A DNA stretch of 64,000 bases from an uncultured Bacteroidales bacterium (GTDB taxonomy: Bacteria > Bacteroidota > Bacteroidia > Bacteroidales > Paludibacteraceae). Position 1 is the first letter of the stretch. Each line of letters starts with the position of its first letter. Positions 25,722 to 60,030 of the stretch are shown here, in pieces. The notes beneath the pieces were generated by a model. It saw only the letters and a program-made list of their open reading frames with translations, was not told where the DNA came from and ran no database searches. The translations under genes were made by a program, and so were the position numbers. Location: assembly GCA_902799705.1 (NCBI GenBank), contig CADCBP010000012.1, forward strand, positions 1 to 64,000. Reading direction: 5' to 3'.

Positions 25722-27053
25722 TTAAATAAACGCAGCCATCAATATTGGAATCAGGCGTGTTTGTCCGTCATGCGACACATCTTTGGTATATAATAGTATC
25801 CGCTCTCCGATACGGGCGGAGAACTTGTTACAAAAAGCATCCAGCGAAGCGTGTGATGAATGGGAAGAAGACTTCACCTCGATCGGACAAACCTTGCTGC
25901 CACGCGACAATAGAAAATCTATTTCATAGTTATGCTTTTGATCTTTCGGGAAGGTGTAATAGAACAGATTATTACCTGCCGTAGCTAACATTTGTGCCGC
26001 CATGTTCTCATACACATAGCCCAAATTGACATCCAGTTTGTCACTCAGCAGTTTCTCATACAATATGTTTTCTGTGAAATCCTTATCCCAGAATGCCAGA
26101 GTAACAAACAACCCTGTGTCGGCTGTGAAAATTTTGTACCGGCTGTCATCTTTGGTCAACGACATTCCCACACTCGGGTCATCGCAATGATATACCATAT
26201 TGACCGTCTTGCTGTCTTCCAGAGCCTTAATCAGTTCAAGCAGTTTGTCTTCTTCTACTGAACCGATTGCATTATAAGGCACGAACCGGCTTGCCGATCG
26301 GGCTAACTGTCCGGGAACAGACATAAACAGTTTGCTGAGCCGGCCGGTAGCGTCTATCTTCAGAAAATCGTCTTCATACAGTTTAAGGATATTCCGTTTG
26401 ATAGCATCCACTTTCTGCAGGTTCTTTGTATCAAGATACGTATTAACCGCTTGCGGCATACCGCCGATAATCATATAGAGCCTGAATTCGCGCATCTTGG
26501 TACGAAAAGCAGCCCCTAAAGGCAACCGCTTGTCATAGAACGTGCGCAATAAGGGCATAGTAGCTGTGTCACCCATCGCCCAACAGAACTCCTCATAATC
26601 CATCGGATACATGGTGATTCGGTCTTCCTCGCTCGGAATCGTGATACCCTGCGTATTTTTCTTGATACTGATGAGCGAACCTGTCTCAATATAATCGTAT
26701 CGCCCGTCTGCTACCAGATATTTGATAGCTTGACGTGCAAGAGGACATTTCTGTACTTCATCAAAAATAATGACCGACTTACGAGGCTCCAAACTGACAC
26801 CATAGTTGGCTTGTAAAGTAAGGAAGATGTAATCCAGATTATCCAGGTCTTCAAATAGGTCTTTGATTTTCTTTGCCGCTTTGTTAAAGTCGATTAAAAT
26901 ATAGGAAGCATATTCGTGCTTGGCAAACTCTTCCACAATGGTAGATTTCCCCACGCGCCGTGCCCCCTCAACCAACAATGCTGTTTTGCCTTGGCTTTCC
27001 TGTTTCCATGCAAGCAATTTGTCATACAACTTGCGCTTAAAAATCCGTTCCAT
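25722..27053 (-). CDS. ATP-binding protein, AAA_14 + DUF4143
   Basis: A complete 443-aa family member. Walker A is GARRVGKST (30-38, Lys36), Walker B 'VIIFDEVQKCP', sensor region 'YDYIETGSLISIKKNT'. The C-terminal DUF4143 domain keeps the nuclease-like 'YEIDFLLSRGSKVCPIEVKSS' (Asp...Glu-x-Lys). These ATPases are abundant in gut Bacteroidales; proposed roles include defence and host interaction, none settled. It has its own promoter (27079-27109). The 500 bp upstream hold dispersed repeats like those beside the third copy at 56167. Confidence 0.9.
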   Translation of the reverse strand: MERIFKRKLYDKLLAWKQESQGKTALLVEGARRVGKSTIVEEFAKHEYASYILIDFNKAAKKIKDLFEDLDNLDYIFLTLQANYGVSLEPRKSVIIFDEVQKCPLARQAIKYLVADGRYDYIETGSLISIKKNTQGITIPSEEDRITMYPMDYEEFCWAMGDTATMPLLRTFYDKRLPLGAAFRTKMREFRLYMIIGGMPQAVNTYLDTKNLQKVDAIKRNILKLYEDDFLKIDATGRLSKLFMSVPGQLARSASRFVPYNAIGSVEEDKLLELIKALEDSKTVNMVYHCDDPSVGMSLTKDDSRYKIFTADTGLFVTLAFWDKDFTENILYEKLLSDKLDVNLGYVYENMAAQMLATAGNNLFYYTFPKDQKHNYEIDFLLSRGSKVCPIEVKSSSHSSHASLDAFCNKFSARIGERILLYTKDVSHDGQTRLIPILMAAFI

Positions 27054-27570: not shown

Positions 27571-28692
27571 CTATTTACTGCTTTTCCGCCGGTTACAATC
27601 CCTGCACAACATCTGGCAGTTACTTGCAATTGTTCGTCCGCCTTCTACCCACGGTGTTATATGGTCCGCTTCCATAACCTCTATATCAAACGGTTTGCCG
27701 CATATAGCACACTTGCCGCCTTGACGCTCATAAACCTCGCGGCGCGTGTTGGCATCAAAGGCACGGATACCCAAATGGTGGATGTCGCCGTCAAGGATAT
27801 AGGCAAAAATACCGCTTTTCTTTTGCACATCGCTGTCCGCCATCAGTTTAGCCATCTGTTCACCGATAGCCGTAGCGGTTAAAGCGGAGTCTTTGTGTTT
27901 GTTATAGAGCAAGCCCCATTCCACGCCTTTCATCTCTTTCTTGTACTTGCGTCCGAAGAGCTTCTCGATCCAATGGATGACATCTTGGTAGTACTGCCAT
28001 AGTTCGTCGGCGTCCGTGTCGTGCTGATGACGCGCCATGTATTGCTCAATCGTTATGCCTTGTTTGTCGGCTATCCAGCTGAGTGCGGTCTCAAAATAGT
28101 CTTGGCGGATAGGCGAACCGTTCATGAAGTCCGAGCCGATTTTGTATGCCACGCAGCCCGTCTTGGAGAAACGGCGTTTGGCTTGTGTCACCCACGAACC
28201 GGAATAGATAGCGTTGCGGATCTCTTGCTCTTTGAGTTTCTCGCCGGCGATGTTGATGCGTTGGAACCATTTCAGTTTCTCTTCGTCCGTTCCTTCGCAG
28301 ATATAGACTTGCAGTTTATAATCCAATATACGGTTTTGCTGCTCAATGGTCATGTTGTTGAAACCGAGCAAGTTACCGTCAAAGTTCATCATGTACTCGC
28401 CTGCAATAAACGAACAGATGGAAATGGTACGTTGCTGCCCGTCCAGCACTTCATATTCGATACCATCTGTGCCATCCGTCTTGACCCAATACATGACGTT
28501 CAACGGAAAATTCTGCCAAACGGTGTCCATGACGGCATTGCGCTGTTTCTCGTCATAGACAAACTCACGCTGGTATTTCGGGCGTATATTCAGTCGTCCG
28601 CCGTAGCCGACGATACCTTCTTCCTGAATACTCAAATCATTGTAATCGGCGCACAACTCCCGCACGCGGACTTCATGTAATTCTATTTTCAT
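27571..28692 (-). CDS. DUF262 NTPase-HNH endonuclease fusion
   Basis: A 373-aa protein. The N-terminal DUF262 (ParB/GmrS-like) domain has the 'DGQQRTI' motif (84-90) and 'IRPKYQREFVYDEKQRNAV'. The C-terminal HNH/McrA-like nuclease has zinc cysteines 328, 331, 363 and 366 and the core 'EADHITPWVEGG' (His344) with Asn358. DUF262 proteins of GmrSD type use NTP hydrolysis to restrict DNA, but normally pair with DUF1524. Here the nuclease is HNH, and the gene overlaps an adenine methylase by 4 bp, so a restriction role with self-protection is likely (inference). Confidence 0.88.
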   Translation of the reverse strand: MKIELHEVRVRELCADYNDLSIQEEGIVGYGGRLNIRPKYQREFVYDEKQRNAVMDTVWQNFPLNVMYWVKTDGTDGIEYEVLDGQQRTISICSFIAGEYMMNFDGNLLGFNNMTIEQQNRILDYKLQVYICEGTDEEKLKWFQRINIAGEKLKEQEIRNAIYSGSWVTQAKRRFSKTGCVAYKIGSDFMNGSPIRQDYFETALSWIADKQGITIEQYMARHQHDTDADELWQYYQDVIHWIEKLFGRKYKKEMKGVEWGLLYNKHKDSALTATAIGEQMAKLMADSDVQKKSGIFAYILDGDIHHLGIRAFDANTRREVYERQGGKCAICGKPFDIEVMEADHITPWVEGGRTIASNCQMLCRDCNRRKSSK

Positions 28693-29720
28693 GGCTTTTG
28701 TGGTTTTTTATTGCGAATTAAAACTCTTTCATATATACGCTTTCCATTAATATAAGGAGCACCTTTGGGCATAGATATTGTACTTGTTCCTATTATTTCA
28801 AATTGATCAGGATTGTATTTATCTATAAATGTTATAGGAACCCCCATAATACCTGTATAATCACTTGGAATTTCAGATGTTTTGTCAACATTAATTGCTT
28901 CGTAATTGTCATACATAGGATATTCGTCAGAAGAAAACTGTTTATATAAAATCATTTCCTCTTGCCTTTTCTGAATATTCAAATTCGTAAACCAACACAC
29001 GTTTCCTAAGCTTCTCCATTTTTGCCCATTTTCATCTACCCAATACCGTGTGGCTTTAGGCTCAAAATATTCAGGAACTTTGAAACTCATATCTCCGAAT
29101 TTATAACCGAGCCATATTTTGTTATCCTTAATAAGTGTAAATATATCTTTGTAATGAATTGCATTTTGATTACCTATAACGAGAAATTTTTTATCATAAC
29201 TTATTAGTTGTGCAACAAATTCTCTAAAGAGAGAAAATGGAGGATTTGTAACCACTATATCTGCTTCTTTTAGCAATTCAATACATTCTTGCGAGCGAAA
29301 GTCGCCATTCCCTTTGAGCAGAGAAAGCACATTTTTATCGTTTTGAATTAAGTATTGTACATCGGCTAAATTTACCGCTCCATCGTTATTATAATCTAGA
29401 ACTTCTGTTATTTCTACTTTGTAAGCAATCTTCTTCGGCTCGCTTTCTTCGATTTCAAACAACAATGGAAGTTCGTCACCGGCTATGGGTGAGCCGTTGT
29501 AACAAGTCGCAATGAGTTTCTTGAGACCTAACTGGTTAAAATTGAGCGCAAAATACTTGAAGAAATTGCTTTCATATGGATCGTCACAATTACACAACAC
29601 TACCTTTCCCTTAAAGTGTTGTTTATAATATTTGAGTTCATTTGAGATGTCGTCTAATTGTGTATAGAACTCATCTTGTTTTGCTTTAATTGCAGCATTA
29701 AGACTATTATTCCCGGCCAT
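28689..29720 (-). CDS. EcoRI-type adenine-specific DNA methyltransferase
   Basis: A 343-aa protein of the EcoRI methylase family: 'CNCDDPYESNFF' (43-54, SAM region), catalytic NPPF (159-162) and 'YTGIMGVPITFIDKYNPDQFEIIG' near the end. Residues 109-124 ('DYNNDGAVNLADVQYL') form a dockerin/EF-hand-like calcium loop inside the enzyme. Expected product: N6-methyladenine at a specific site. Its stop overlaps the DUF262-HNH start, making one operon with methylase first. Only 3 bp upstream of its ATG begins structured element copy A. Confidence 0.9.
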   Translation of the reverse strand: MAGNNSLNAAIKAKQDEFYTQLDDISNELKYYKQHFKGKVVLCNCDDPYESNFFKYFALNFNQLGLKKLIATCYNGSPIAGDELPLLFEIEESEPKKIAYKVEITEVLDYNNDGAVNLADVQYLIQNDKNVLSLLKGNGDFRSQECIELLKEADIVVTNPPFSLFREFVAQLISYDKKFLVIGNQNAIHYKDIFTLIKDNKIWLGYKFGDMSFKVPEYFEPKATRYWVDENGQKWRSLGNVCWFTNLNIQKRQEEMILYKQFSSDEYPMYDNYEAINVDKTSEIPSDYTGIMGVPITFIDKYNPDQFEIIGTSTISMPKGAPYINGKRIYERVLIRNKKPQKP

Positions 29721-29723
29721 ATA

Positions 29724-30010
29724 GATTGATAGTTTTTTTGCGCAAAACTATCAATCGTGGCGATAAGAAAAGTGCGAGTTTCTTATCGCGTACCAAGGCA
29801 GCCCGTCAAGGAAACCTCATCCAACTTAAGAAACTCACACAAAAATGTGAAGCATCTATATTAGTTGGATTAAGGCATCCTATATACGGAAACCTTTACT
29901 GATTATTTGTCGTTTATTTCCTTAAAGATTGACGGGCTTTTCGGTAAACGCGAAATAATAGTAATGCTTATTATTTTAATATGTTGTTGCGCAACGCTTT
30001 GCGCTTGTTT
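29724..30010 (+). ncRNA. putative structured RNA/element, copy A
   Basis: No convincing ORF. Stems seen: H1 29724-29736/29744-29756; a long-range stem GCCCGTCAA/TTGACGGGC (29801-29809/29929-29937); ATCCAACT/AGTTGGAT (29819-29826/29863-29870); TCACA/TGTGA; a crossing pairing 29772-29785/29827-29840 (pseudoknot); and a final GCGCAA/TTGCGC hairpin with a T-rich tail (29989-30010). The same architecture with different paired bases is at 59740-60030. Strand is given by the T-rich tail but is uncertain; as a minus-strand leader it would precede the methylase ATG directly. A weak alternative is a coding frame, since 'FGKREIIVML' is readable in both copies. Confidence 0.6.
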
Positions 30011-30021
30011 TATGTCTAATG

Positions 30022-30070
30022 TTTTTCTCCTTTTTCCGGAGTGCTCGGAAGTACCGTTCGGAGAGGGACG
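30022..30070 (-). repeat. CTCTCCGA...GGAGAAA 3' hairpin, copy 1
   Basis: It lies just after the stop of the DUF1016 remnant (minus strand). Related copies follow the STAS-like gene (60027-60060) and the Bro-N gene (61391-61440). Ends CGTCCC-CTCCGA and GGAGAAA are shared and can pair; probably a terminator family. Confidence 0.6.
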
Positions 30071-30075
30071 TGTAT

Positions 30076-56166: not shown

Positions 56167-57339
56167 ATGGCACAACAATTCTACATACCACGCCGTCTGG
56201 AGAGCGTTATTCTGGAGGCTGCACAGTACTTTTCTGTTATCTCTGTTACAGGTCCTCGTCAGTCCGGCAAATCGACCATGCTGAAACATTTGTTTCCCGA
56301 TTTGCCGCAGTATAGTATGAAGGATTTGCATGTGCGTGCCTTTGCGGAACAAGACCCTGTTGCCTTTCTGAATCAACACAAAGAAGGCATGTTTATTGAC
56401 GAGGTACAAAAAGTGCCGGCTTTATTGGATTATATTCAAGGTATCGTAGATACCGAGCCGGAGAGGCGGTTTGTGTTGACAGGAAGTAGTAATTTGGAGT
56501 TGCTGCAAGGTCTTACGGAGTCCCTTCCCGGTCGCGCCGGTGTGTATGAGTTAATGCCGATGTCGATGAATGAGACCAAAGAGCAGATAAAAGATAAAAG
56601 CACGAACCAACTGCTTTATGAGGGTTTCTATCCTGCTATTTGTGCAAAAAAGAATATTGCAAAACTCTTTTACCCGTCGTATGTGAAGACATATCTGGAG
56701 AAAGATGTGCGCGACTTGCTGCGTATCAAAGACCAGATGCAATTTCTAAAGTTTATGAAACTCTGTGCGGCTCGGATCGGTTCCGTTTTCAATGCCTCGG
56801 AAGTGGGAATGGAAGTGGGTGTAGATAGCAAGACCATCAGTCATTGGCTCTCTGTTCTGCAGGCTTCGTATCTCGTGACGCTTCTTCCGCCGTATTACGA
56901 GAATATCACCAAACGGGTTGTGAAGAGCCCCAAATTATATTTCAATGATCCAGGGTTGGCTTGTTATCTGTTGGATATAGAGACACCGCGGCAGTTGGAA
57001 CTGGACAAGATGCGAGGGGCTATTTTTGAGAATATAATGGTTATGGAGTGTCTCAAGCATCGTTTCAATCAAGGCAAAGAGGGTAATGTCTTTTTCTACA
57101 GGGATAGTAACGGTCAGGAGGTGGATATATTGGTCAAAGAGGAAGGCCAGCTGACAGCGATCGAGGTCAAATCATCCATGACTTATCATCCGGACTTTAC
57201 GAAGTCGTTACAACGTTTGCCGGACTGGACAAGTACACCCATCAAACGCCGCGCCGTAGTCTATGGCGGCGATTTCGAGAATACCGCCGGCGATATATGG
57301 CTTCTGAGGTATGACCATATAGAGAAGCTATTTGAATAG
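56167..57339 (+). CDS. ATP-binding protein, AAA_14 + DUF4143
   Basis: A complete 390-aa member. Walker A GPRQSGKST (29-37, Lys35), Walker B 'MFIDEVQKVP', sensor 'RFVLTGSSNLELLQGLTESLPGRAGVYELMPMS'. A winged-helix-like centre ('FNASEVGMEVGVDSKTISHWLSVL') precedes the DUF4143 nuclease-like end 'QEVDILVKEEGQLTAIEVKSS'. It belongs to a different subgroup (GPRQSGKST) from the copy at 25722 (GARRVGKST). It is followed by a repeat-rich gap of 550 bp. Confidence 0.9.
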   Translation: MAQQFYIPRRLESVILEAAQYFSVISVTGPRQSGKSTMLKHLFPDLPQYSMKDLHVRAFAEQDPVAFLNQHKEGMFIDEVQKVPALLDYIQGIVDTEPERRFVLTGSSNLELLQGLTESLPGRAGVYELMPMSMNETKEQIKDKSTNQLLYEGFYPAICAKKNIAKLFYPSYVKTYLEKDVRDLLRIKDQMQFLKFMKLCAARIGSVFNASEVGMEVGVDSKTISHWLSVLQASYLVTLLPPYYENITKRVVKSPKLYFNDPGLACYLLDIETPRQLELDKMRGAIFENIMVMECLKHRFNQGKEGNVFFYRDSNGQEVDILVKEEGQLTAIEVKSSMTYHPDFTKSLQRLPDWTSTPIKRRAVVYGGDFENTAGDIWLLRYDHIEKLFE

Positions 57340-59739: not shown

Positions 59740-60030
59740 GATTGATAGTTAAATTTGTGCATAACTATCAATCCGCAAACACAAAAAAAGCATGAACTTC
59801 TTATGCGTTTACCAAGGCAGCGTAGGAATAGAAGCCTATATCATCAATAAGAAGTCCATGCTAAAAGAGCATGGCATTACCTTATACGATGATATGAGCA
59901 TCCCTATTCCGGAACACTCTAATTATTTCTTCGTTTTATATCCGTAAAAGTTTCCTACGCTTTCGGTAAACGCGAAATAATAGTAATGCTTTGTTATTGT
60001 TTAATTAGCGCAACGCTTTGCGCTTGTCTT
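59740..60030 (+). ncRNA. putative structured RNA/element, copy B
   Basis: Same plan as copy A. H1 GATTGATAGTT/AACTATCAATC (59740-59750/59763-59773); outer stem GCGTTTACC/GGTAAACGC (59805-59813/59965-59973); GCGTAGGAA/TTCCTACGC (59820-59828/59952-59960); ATATCATC/GATGATAT (59838-59845/59888-59895); hairpin CCATGC/GCATGG (59856-59861/59869-59874); pseudoknot 59789-59804/59847-59862 (15 of 16 pairs); AGCGCAA/TTGCGCT (60007-60024) then a T-rich tail. Conserved single-stranded parts: ACCAAGGCAGC and CGCGAAATAATAGTAATGCTT. A 50-codon frame (MNFLCVYQGSVGIEAY...) is readable here but not in copy A. Strand is uncertain. Confidence 0.62.

Follow-up and report, generated by a model that had tools for sequence, protein, structure and literature searches.

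A putative class of structured RNA leaders upstream of restriction-modification and envelope modification genes in Bacteroidales

Introduction

In restriction-modification (RM) systems, methylation and cleavage have to be controlled in both order and level. This is known to be done by C proteins, which are DNA-binding transcription factors, or by the enzymes themselves. At the RNA level, riboswitches with a translational platform feature a large conserved structured domain in the 5' leader, a pseudoknot and alternative pairings near the start codon. Structured RNAs tied to a nuclease gene are known as HEARO, or omega-RNA, of IscB and IsrB. Structured sites are also found in integrons, where attC elements carry GTTRRRY/RYYYAAC core sites and are associated with a tyrosine recombinase. 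In Bacteroidetes, Bacteroidales-1 (RF01693), Bacteroides-1 and Bacteroides-2 are listed as orphan RNA motifs in a table of PMC2864571.

The sequence described here is found twice in a 64,000-nucleotide stretch of Bacteroidales DNA (the window, meaning the whole stretch analysed). The window derives from a 2.3 Mb genome assembled in 45 contigs and assigned to the Paludibacteraceae, called below the family. An initial annotation had described a two-copy structured element, and had proposed either a mobile structured RNA or a leader travelling with gene modules.

Results

Two copies in the window

The copies share an exact 28-nt block, CGGTAAACGCGAAATAATAGTAATGCTT, which occurs twice in the window and is expected 0 times in shuffled sequences. 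On the minus strand, copy A folds at -87.9 kcal/mol (z -10.30) and copy B at -88.1 kcal/mol (z -8.67), and in neither case was any of 200 shuffles as good. Under a family covariance model, built from sequences that include both copies, the cores 29771-29948 (copy A) and 59789-59970 (copy B) score 162.7 bits (E 2.4e-29) and 121.6 bits (E 1.5e-21), respectively. No third copy was detected in the window by the model; the whole genome hosts four, so that the count of two given in the annotation holds for the window but not for the genome. The genes following the four copies encode an EcoRI-type methyltransferase (twice), a sulfatase-fold enzyme, and a 563-aa protein which has a signal-peptide-like start and no Pfam match.

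All strings quoted in the annotation are found where it placed them. The closing stem, the inner stem and the apical hairpin are indeed paired in both copies by differing bases, and so is the crossing pairing, formed by GTGTGAGTTTCTTA and TAAGAAACTCGCAC in copy A and by AGCATGGACTTCTTAT and ATAAGAAGTTCATGCT in copy B. The end of the element had been set at 0-3 bp from a start codon, and hairpin III indeed ends 3 nt short of the ATG in copy A and directly at it (0 nt) in copy B. What has to be reversed is the order of the parts, as the transcribed strand is most likely the minus strand, opposite to the direction in which they had been listed. The GCGCAA hairpin with its T-rich tail is present, but consequently falls on the 5' side, is no terminator of the element, and is found in part of the family only.

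Copies A and B are most likely structured RNA 5' leaders, on the minus strand, of the gene whose ATG comes next. As predicted from sequence, the leader is about 255 nt long and is probably transcribed together with the gene starting right behind it. Features are listed in Table 1.

Table 1. Leader features and adjacent genes in the window
Feature	Position	Strand	Basis or remark
Copy B, whole leader	59740..59997	-	5' conserved block to base preceding sulfatase ATG; model match, fold z
Copy B, 5' conserved block AAGCATTACTATTATTTCGCG	59971..59991	-	
Copy B, GCATTACTAT, 5' strand of proposed closing helix PA	59980-59989	-	
Copy B, helix P0 5' arm CGCGTTTACC	59965..59974	-	type 1 E 0.12, not significant; type-2 pairing
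Copy B, helix P0 3' arm GGTAAACGC	59805..59813	-	as for P0 5' arm
Copy B, helix P1 5' arm GCGTAGGAA	59952..59960	-	P1 pair covariation E 3.8e-12 to 5.9e-3
Copy B, helix P1 3' arm TTCCTACGC	59820..59828	-	P1 covariation
Copy B, helix P3 5' arm ATATCATC	59888..59895	-	P3 pair covariation E 2.3e-13 to 3e-6
Copy B, helix P3 3' arm GATGATAT	59838..59845	-	P3 covariation
Copy B, inner strand of crossing helix PK AGCATGGACTTCTTAT	59847..59862	-	swap test
Copy B, 3' strand of PK ATAAGAAGTTCATGCT	59789..59804	-	overlaps alternative hairpin II (59775-59806)
Copy B, hairpin III GATTGATAGT..ACTATCAATC	59740..59773	-	abuts ATG
Gene after copy B: sulfatase-fold membrane enzyme, 615 aa	57892..59739	-	LtaS-like by sub-cut-off NCBIfam match
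Copy A, whole leader	29721..29975	-	model match, fold z
Copy A, 5' conserved block	29949..29969	-	repeated 28-nt block analysis
Copy A, P1 5' arm GCCCGTCAA	29929..29937	-	P1 covariation
Copy A, P1 3' arm TTGACGGGC	29801..29809	-	P1 covariation
Copy A, inner PK strand GTGTGAGTTTCTTA	29827..29840	-	alignment, swap test
Copy A, 3' PK strand TAAGAAACTCGCAC	29772..29785	-	overlaps hairpin II (29760-29789)
Copy A, hairpin III	29724..29756	-	
Gene after copy A: EcoRI-type adenine methyltransferase	28689..29720	-	PF13651 E 7.4e-146; PADLOC MTase_II
Next gene: GmrSD_N + HNH	27571..28692	-	PADLOC REase_II E 1.7e-126; 4-nt overlap with methyltransferase

Other sequences recur around the copies. A GCGCAACGCTTTGCGC hairpin (60008-60023 and 29989-30004) is located just upstream of both, and only part of the family has it. 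A string CTCTCCGA..CTTCCGAGCACTCCGG, or a close variant, is common to positions 30020-30075 and to locus L004 (near 1400); it lies between the preceding gene and the leader, and is possibly a terminator or a repeat element. Two genes encoding AAA_14/DUF4143 ATPases (25722-27053, minus strand; 56167-57339, plus strand) are found one near each leader.

Homologues and their distribution

A 24-nt pattern, allowing up to 3 mismatches, was found in 60 of 300 genomes of the family, and a degenerate pattern matched 104 stretches of named genomes. The pattern-positive genomes, among the 80 matches listed, are MAGs of Paludibacteraceae and of other Bacteroidales/Bacteroidetes, many from rumen or gut; a few are labelled 'bacterium' only. 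Both halves of the element were required, and 105 of 113 places were kept; the 8 left out lack a recognisable 3' half, and 4 of these are near a contig or locus end. Of the places kept 100 could be aligned, and 91 remain at less than 95% identity. Two reverse-strand model matches were also left out of the counts, as was L193, an IMG/VR contig carrying a degenerate element, the sole pattern match among viral contigs. In L022 and L023 an additional stretch of ~85 nt (about 1500+215 to 1500+300) separates hairpins II and III.

The 91 non-redundant homologues are referred to as type 1. Divergent leaders, called type 2, were gathered from the sequence upstream of PF13651 (EcoRI-type methyltransferase) genes. 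The two types are homologous, since the type-2 model recognises 3 of the 4 type-1 copies of the source genome (E 2e-9 to 7e-9). Thirty PF13651 loci were fetched in the family scan: 29 have a readable upstream region, and by eye a leader is present in all 29, belonging to type 1 or type 2 except in L200, which has another variant; the remaining locus, L215, is at a contig edge. Among the 54 long PF13651 matches of the same scan, the type-2 model places a leader before 36. Another seven were read by eye, and six of them have a leader, the seventh being at a contig edge; one more follows the type-1 copy that the source genome has on contig 25, and ten of the 54 stand outside the leader reading. 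In other families of the order leaders were recognised by eye at 8 of 23 readable PF13651 loci, L231 and L236 being variants, and none was seen at the other 15.

In the family, 43 of 120 genomes were matched by the type-2 model, and in the order 13 of 198 were; three order matches outside the family are strong (G317, G399 and G482, E below 1e-31), and seven of the 13 are weak. The type-1 model matched 8 of the 198 genomes of the order, five outside the family. In a phylum sample, under stricter filters, it matched one genome of 247, the source genome itself, and none outside Bacteroidales. Copy A had no match in either the phage or the plasmid collection queried, and an origin from phages or plasmids was rejected on this ground.

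No named family was thought to fit the element, and no Rfam family does. In a cmscan of the window copies against all families of Rfam 15 only sub-threshold matches were obtained (E 0.34 or worse). Ten loci with divergent leaders gave a single Rfam match, a FopS-family sRNA (RF04319) at L208:1220-1293 (plus strand), near an EcoRI-type methyltransferase gene and off the leader.

Direction of the leader

TAnnTTTG is the consensus of the Bacteroidetes promoter box. The motif is present 20-140 nt upstream of 43 of 86 leaders, with a peak at 40-80 nt, against a mean of 3.8 and a maximum of 10 in shuffled sequences, and 14 on the opposite strand. By eye, none was seen within 120 nt upstream of either window copy. 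On the downstream side, an ATG follows the end of hairpin III by 0-5 nt in all the 104 leaders, 88 of them non-redundant, to which a hairpin was assigned by a script that itself selects leaders having such a hairpin (the 5' motif was matched loosely at 201 places, many of which are no elements; hairpins were returned for 107, and 3 mis-assigned ones were dropped). A TGC is found within the loop region in 101 of the 104. For type 2, the model match and the PF13651 match are separated by 57-73 nt in 37 of the 37 places in which they are less than 200 nt apart.

Promoter boxes upstream and a near-fixed start codon downstream argue for a minus-strand mRNA leader, the second of the two readings initially proposed. 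The predicted layout is thus promoter-like boxes, then the leader, then the start codon of the locus's first gene, all on the same strand. Two simpler arrangements were rejected. A start codon inside hairpin III does not fit, as an ATG is found there in 69 of 88 leaders, distributed over the three frames relative to the gene as 27, 19 and 23. Attenuation by a leader peptide was dismissed because the reading frame that begins at the apical ATG has no constant length (3 to 77 codons); a conserved reading frame, named in the initial annotation as an argument against an RNA element, is not seen there.

Predicted structure and covariation

In the minus-strand order, the leader starts with the conserved tract GCAUUA(G)CUAUUAUUUCGCG, followed by P0, ACCGAAA, P1, P2, an A-rich stretch and a small hairpin. 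P3, with internal loop AUAAUAGAUGC and the apical hairpin, occupies the middle part, and is followed by the rest of P2 and P1, UGCCUUGGU and the rest of P0. The 3' part consists of the PK strand, hairpin II, hairpin III and the AUG.

A covariance-model search for homologues had been recommended, and those retrieved display strong covariation. This was evaluated in 96 sequences by a tree-aware test of our own, similar to R-scape (Fitch ancestors, substitutions dealt along a FastTree tree, 60 simulated alignments). Seventeen pairs, all canonical, have E<0.05 and fall in P1, P2 (E 2e-3 and 2e-2) and P3, in an alignment which was fitted to the model structure and favours P0-P3. A prior free MAFFT alignment gave E 6.5e-7 for P1 and 2.4e-3 for P3, and RNAalifold alone returned 18 pairs, mostly in P1 and the apical stem. 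In 18 type-2 leaders P0 is paired in 18/18 at six of its seven pairs and in 17/18 at the seventh, with up to 3 pair types. P3 is paired in 6 to 13 of 16-18 type-2 leaders, the alignment being poor there.

Within type 1, the strands of the crossing helix PK are nearly invariant, so that no PK pair is significant in the tree-aware test (best E 66). PK was therefore assessed by swapping strands among leaders. With anchored segments, and by a statistic that ignores the relatedness of leaders, own strands paired better than swapped ones both for type 1 (65 of 67 leaders) and among the divergent remainder (20 of 21), and none of 5000 permutations was as good in either set. When the segment was cut so short that it missed the PK strand, the test was consequently negative in type 1 (40 of 67; own -13.73, swapped -13.50; 1377 of 5000 permutations as good); it was positive in the other 21 leaders (0 of 5000). 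The PK sequence is strongly different in divergent leaders, as L208, L228 and L245. Altogether, sequence analysis shows the leader to be a conserved folded RNA, made of nested helices P1, P2, P3 (and P0) and of a predicted crossing helix, PK, which is supported by the swap tests.

A second crossing helix, between an inner strand and the P0 3' strand, is found in type 2 (mean length score 8.5 for own and 7.0 for swapped strands; 0 of 5000 permutations as good). It is seen in 15 of 18 leaders, a count that includes close relatives, and is replaced by a different helix in L203, L205 and L210. A type-1 pairing of ATTATTTC with GAAATAAT is also seen; no claim is made for it, since both strands are nearly invariant and one was contained in the pattern used for the collection.

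Alternative helices at the start site

The 5' arm of hairpin II shares bases with the PK strand. In hairpin III, the 5' arm and loop (AUAGUNAUGC) show complementarity to the very 5' terminus of the leader, and the resulting helix, PA, has a mean energy of -10.0 kcal/mol over 88 leaders, versus -3.0 for shuffled arm-plus-loop sequences. In the divergent L200 and L231 the complementarity is kept through changes on both strands. L161, L132, L049 and L058, all located before MBOAT genes, lack hairpin III and have the ATG inside hairpin II, which also speaks for a switch.

We favour, with moderate confidence, the reading that the leaders are a new class of cis-acting RNAs, in which alternative helices at the start site would switch translation. 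In the putative open state PK would form, the inner strand pairing with the strand that follows P0, and so would PA, the extreme 5' GCAUUACUAU pairing with AUAGUNAUGC. Hairpins II and III would then not be fully formed, and the start codon would be free for translation. Upon loss of PK and PA, hairpin II and hairpin III, the latter 0-5 nt before the AUG or enclosing it, would shut the start site. Candidates for the signal stabilising or breaking PK are a metabolite, a protein, and the status of transcription or of translation itself; such a signal would set the expression of phage-defence and surface genes.

The main rival is a structured leader devoid of a switch of its own, namely a constitutive 5' UTR protecting or positioning the mRNA, or a site for a host RNA-binding protein, serving as an expression module that can be moved between genes. 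Not every leader has the expression platform: in L014, L054, L135, L073, L074, L168 and L138 neither hairpin II nor hairpin III is clear ahead of the gene, and the core is kept in these leaders all the same. Different genes following related leaders would also suit such a module. Overlapping alternative helices are however kept across divergent leaders, for which a static scaffold has no need, and we regard this explanation as rather unlikely.

Genes behind the leaders

First ORFs were called automatically; 95 proteins were available from the 105 type-1 places, and one was omitted. The 94 proteins scanned, of at least 100 aa, include at a Pfam threshold of 0.001 EcoRI_methylase (44), MBOAT (18; MBOAT_2, 2), sulfatase (8) and acyltransferase_3 (2) members, and single D12 methyltransferase, Eco57I, N6_Mtase, GmrSD_N/HNH, polysaccharide deacetylase and FGE-sulfatase proteins. 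The rest had no Pfam match at this threshold.

Type-2 places were gathered blind to the gene, by a model itself built from methyltransferase leaders, and 37 of the 67 found in the family scan precede PF13651. Of the other 30, 24 were read and two are type-1 copies of the source genome (C4, 59782). At G056:C66 a 218-aa protein follows; G047:C22, G099:C1:25321 and G015:C9, at the bottom of the list, are also outside the 24. The places read include methyltransferases of the MmeI-type IIG (3, of which two were scanned and the third is identical at its start), N6_Mtase IIG (1), N6_N4 type II (1), type III Mod (1) and D12 (3) kinds, and envelope enzymes, as sulfatases (5), acyltransferase_3 (2) and glycosyltransferase 2 (2) proteins. 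Four small HTH or HTH-like proteins (one above the Pfam cut-off), an 829-aa protein lacking Pfam matches, and G046, with no gene assigned, complete the set. In the order scans leaders were found before a Tsp45I-type restriction endonuclease and a ResIII helicase, both in G317, and before an acyltransferase in G353. PADLOC assigned the leader-linked RM genes to types II, IIG and III, and the envelope modifiers include a LtaS/EptA-like sulfatase.

Most Pfam-matched genes behind the leaders are therefore involved in RM or in envelope modification. The genes next to the two copies had been called unrelated and accessory; they do differ, but two themes recur. Behind 37 EcoRI-type methyltransferase genes, 29 next ORFs share by eye the N-terminus of the GmrSD_N-HNH protein of the window, the one partner on which Pfam and PADLOC were run, and the next ORF overlaps the methyltransferase gene by 4 nt in 10 of the 37.

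Large proteins with no Pfam match are encoded behind the leader at L326:458-2944 (minus strand, 829 aa; same gene as in L267), L070:3241-5802 (plus strand, 854 aa) and L164:2-1537 (minus strand, cut off at 512 aa). No NCBIfam match was found for L070, L164 and L267, and no PADLOC match for L070 and L267. These are candidates for new defence genes.

Association of leaders and genes

Gene classes change 28 times on the leader tree, by a crude classification that counts several sulfatases as 'other'; shuffled labels gave a mean of 41.7 changes and a minimum of 34 (1000 shuffles). Leaders thus keep a gene class for a while, yet have been re-associated often. This bears out the idea of travel with gene modules, insofar as related leaders precede different genes; no sign of self-mobility was seen, and the proposed mobile structured RNA is the less supported of the two readings. 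Re-association, the junction at the start codon, and PA strands readable as terminal inverted repeats could all be accommodated by a recombination element, attC-like or bounded by terminal repeats, which captures genes at its 3' hairpin and whose RNA fold is incidental. Against it stand the upstream promoter boxes and the strand bias, the near-constant spacing between model end and PF13651 match, the lack of matches for copy A among phages and plasmids, and the clustering of gene classes on the tree, which together make it improbable.

Seventeen of 53 pattern-positive genomes have no PF13651 match (8 of 31 among those at least 90% complete and at most 5% contaminated), the element being incomplete, cut or unconfirmed in at least 4 of the 17 (G282, G249, G291, G120); seven further pattern-positive genomes all have one. 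The EcoRI-type methyltransferase is therefore unlikely to be a general regulator, and its role as trans-acting regulator of all leaders was rejected. The same absences, and the MBOAT, sulfatase and acyltransferase genes behind leaders, disfavour a trans-acting RNA, such as a guide or scaffold for the HNH nuclease of the same operon, which we hold very improbable although leaders are often near a methyltransferase-HNH pair and an NCBIfam IscB match was obtained (HNH domain only, E 8e-8, far below the family cut-off).

Discussion

The translational switch that we favour resembles known riboswitches in having a big conserved, pseudoknotted 5' leader domain with alternative pairings near the start codon. 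PK overlaps hairpin II in sequence, and PA overlaps hairpin III, so that these helices might exclude each other as the alternative structures of riboswitches do. In contrast to riboswitches, the leader belongs to no Rfam family, is about 255 nt long with more than one crossing helix, and is tied to a theme of defence and surface genes rather than to a metabolic pathway.

C proteins may hold the same place upstream of EcoRI-type methyltransferase genes. Leaderless genes of this type in L229 and L230 are directly preceded by a small HTH_3, C-protein-like gene (L229:1284-1481, L230:435-626), which suggests that leader and controller protein may be alternatives. C proteins act on DNA in transcription, whereas the leader would be an RNA working in cis, and the functional equivalence of the two is inferred.

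HEARO and omega-RNA are of a similar size order, and a HNH gene is near the leader in one subset. Unlike them, the leader has no Rfam match and also precedes genes lacking a nuclease, and no full match to an adjacent IscB/IsrB-family gene was found among the genes scanned behind leaders. The Bacteroidales-1, Bacteroides-1 and Bacteroides-2 orphans are likewise structured Bacteroidales RNAs lacking an assigned function; the sub-threshold Rfam matches of the leader copies are to other families. A literature search covering freely readable papers retrieved no description of the leader RNA, and a term search of PMC8040213 gave no mention of it. As far as seen, the kind is known, a structured cis-regulatory leader and perhaps a riboswitch, and the class and its gene set are new.

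Judged from its sequence context, this is probably a class of cis-regulatory RNAs that Bacteroidales of gut and rumen use in connection with phage defence and with changes of the cell surface. It is conceivable, though doubtful, that a single class of RNA sensors defines an 'immune regulon' of Bacteroidales, in which one intracellular signal opens phage defence at both the DNA and the receptor level. The same switch would stand before RM genes of at least five DNA-methyltransferase families and before surface-remodelling enzymes, and the signal would be a ligand or a state associated with infection or with entry into a new host.

If true, phage defence would be under a general control by RNA, through a leader common to RM families and envelope genes, and the ligand of this leader would reveal what these bacteria sense. 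The leader is moreover a ready marker: the genes of unknown family found behind it, as those encoding the 829-aa and 854-aa proteins of L326 and L070, are candidate defence genes.
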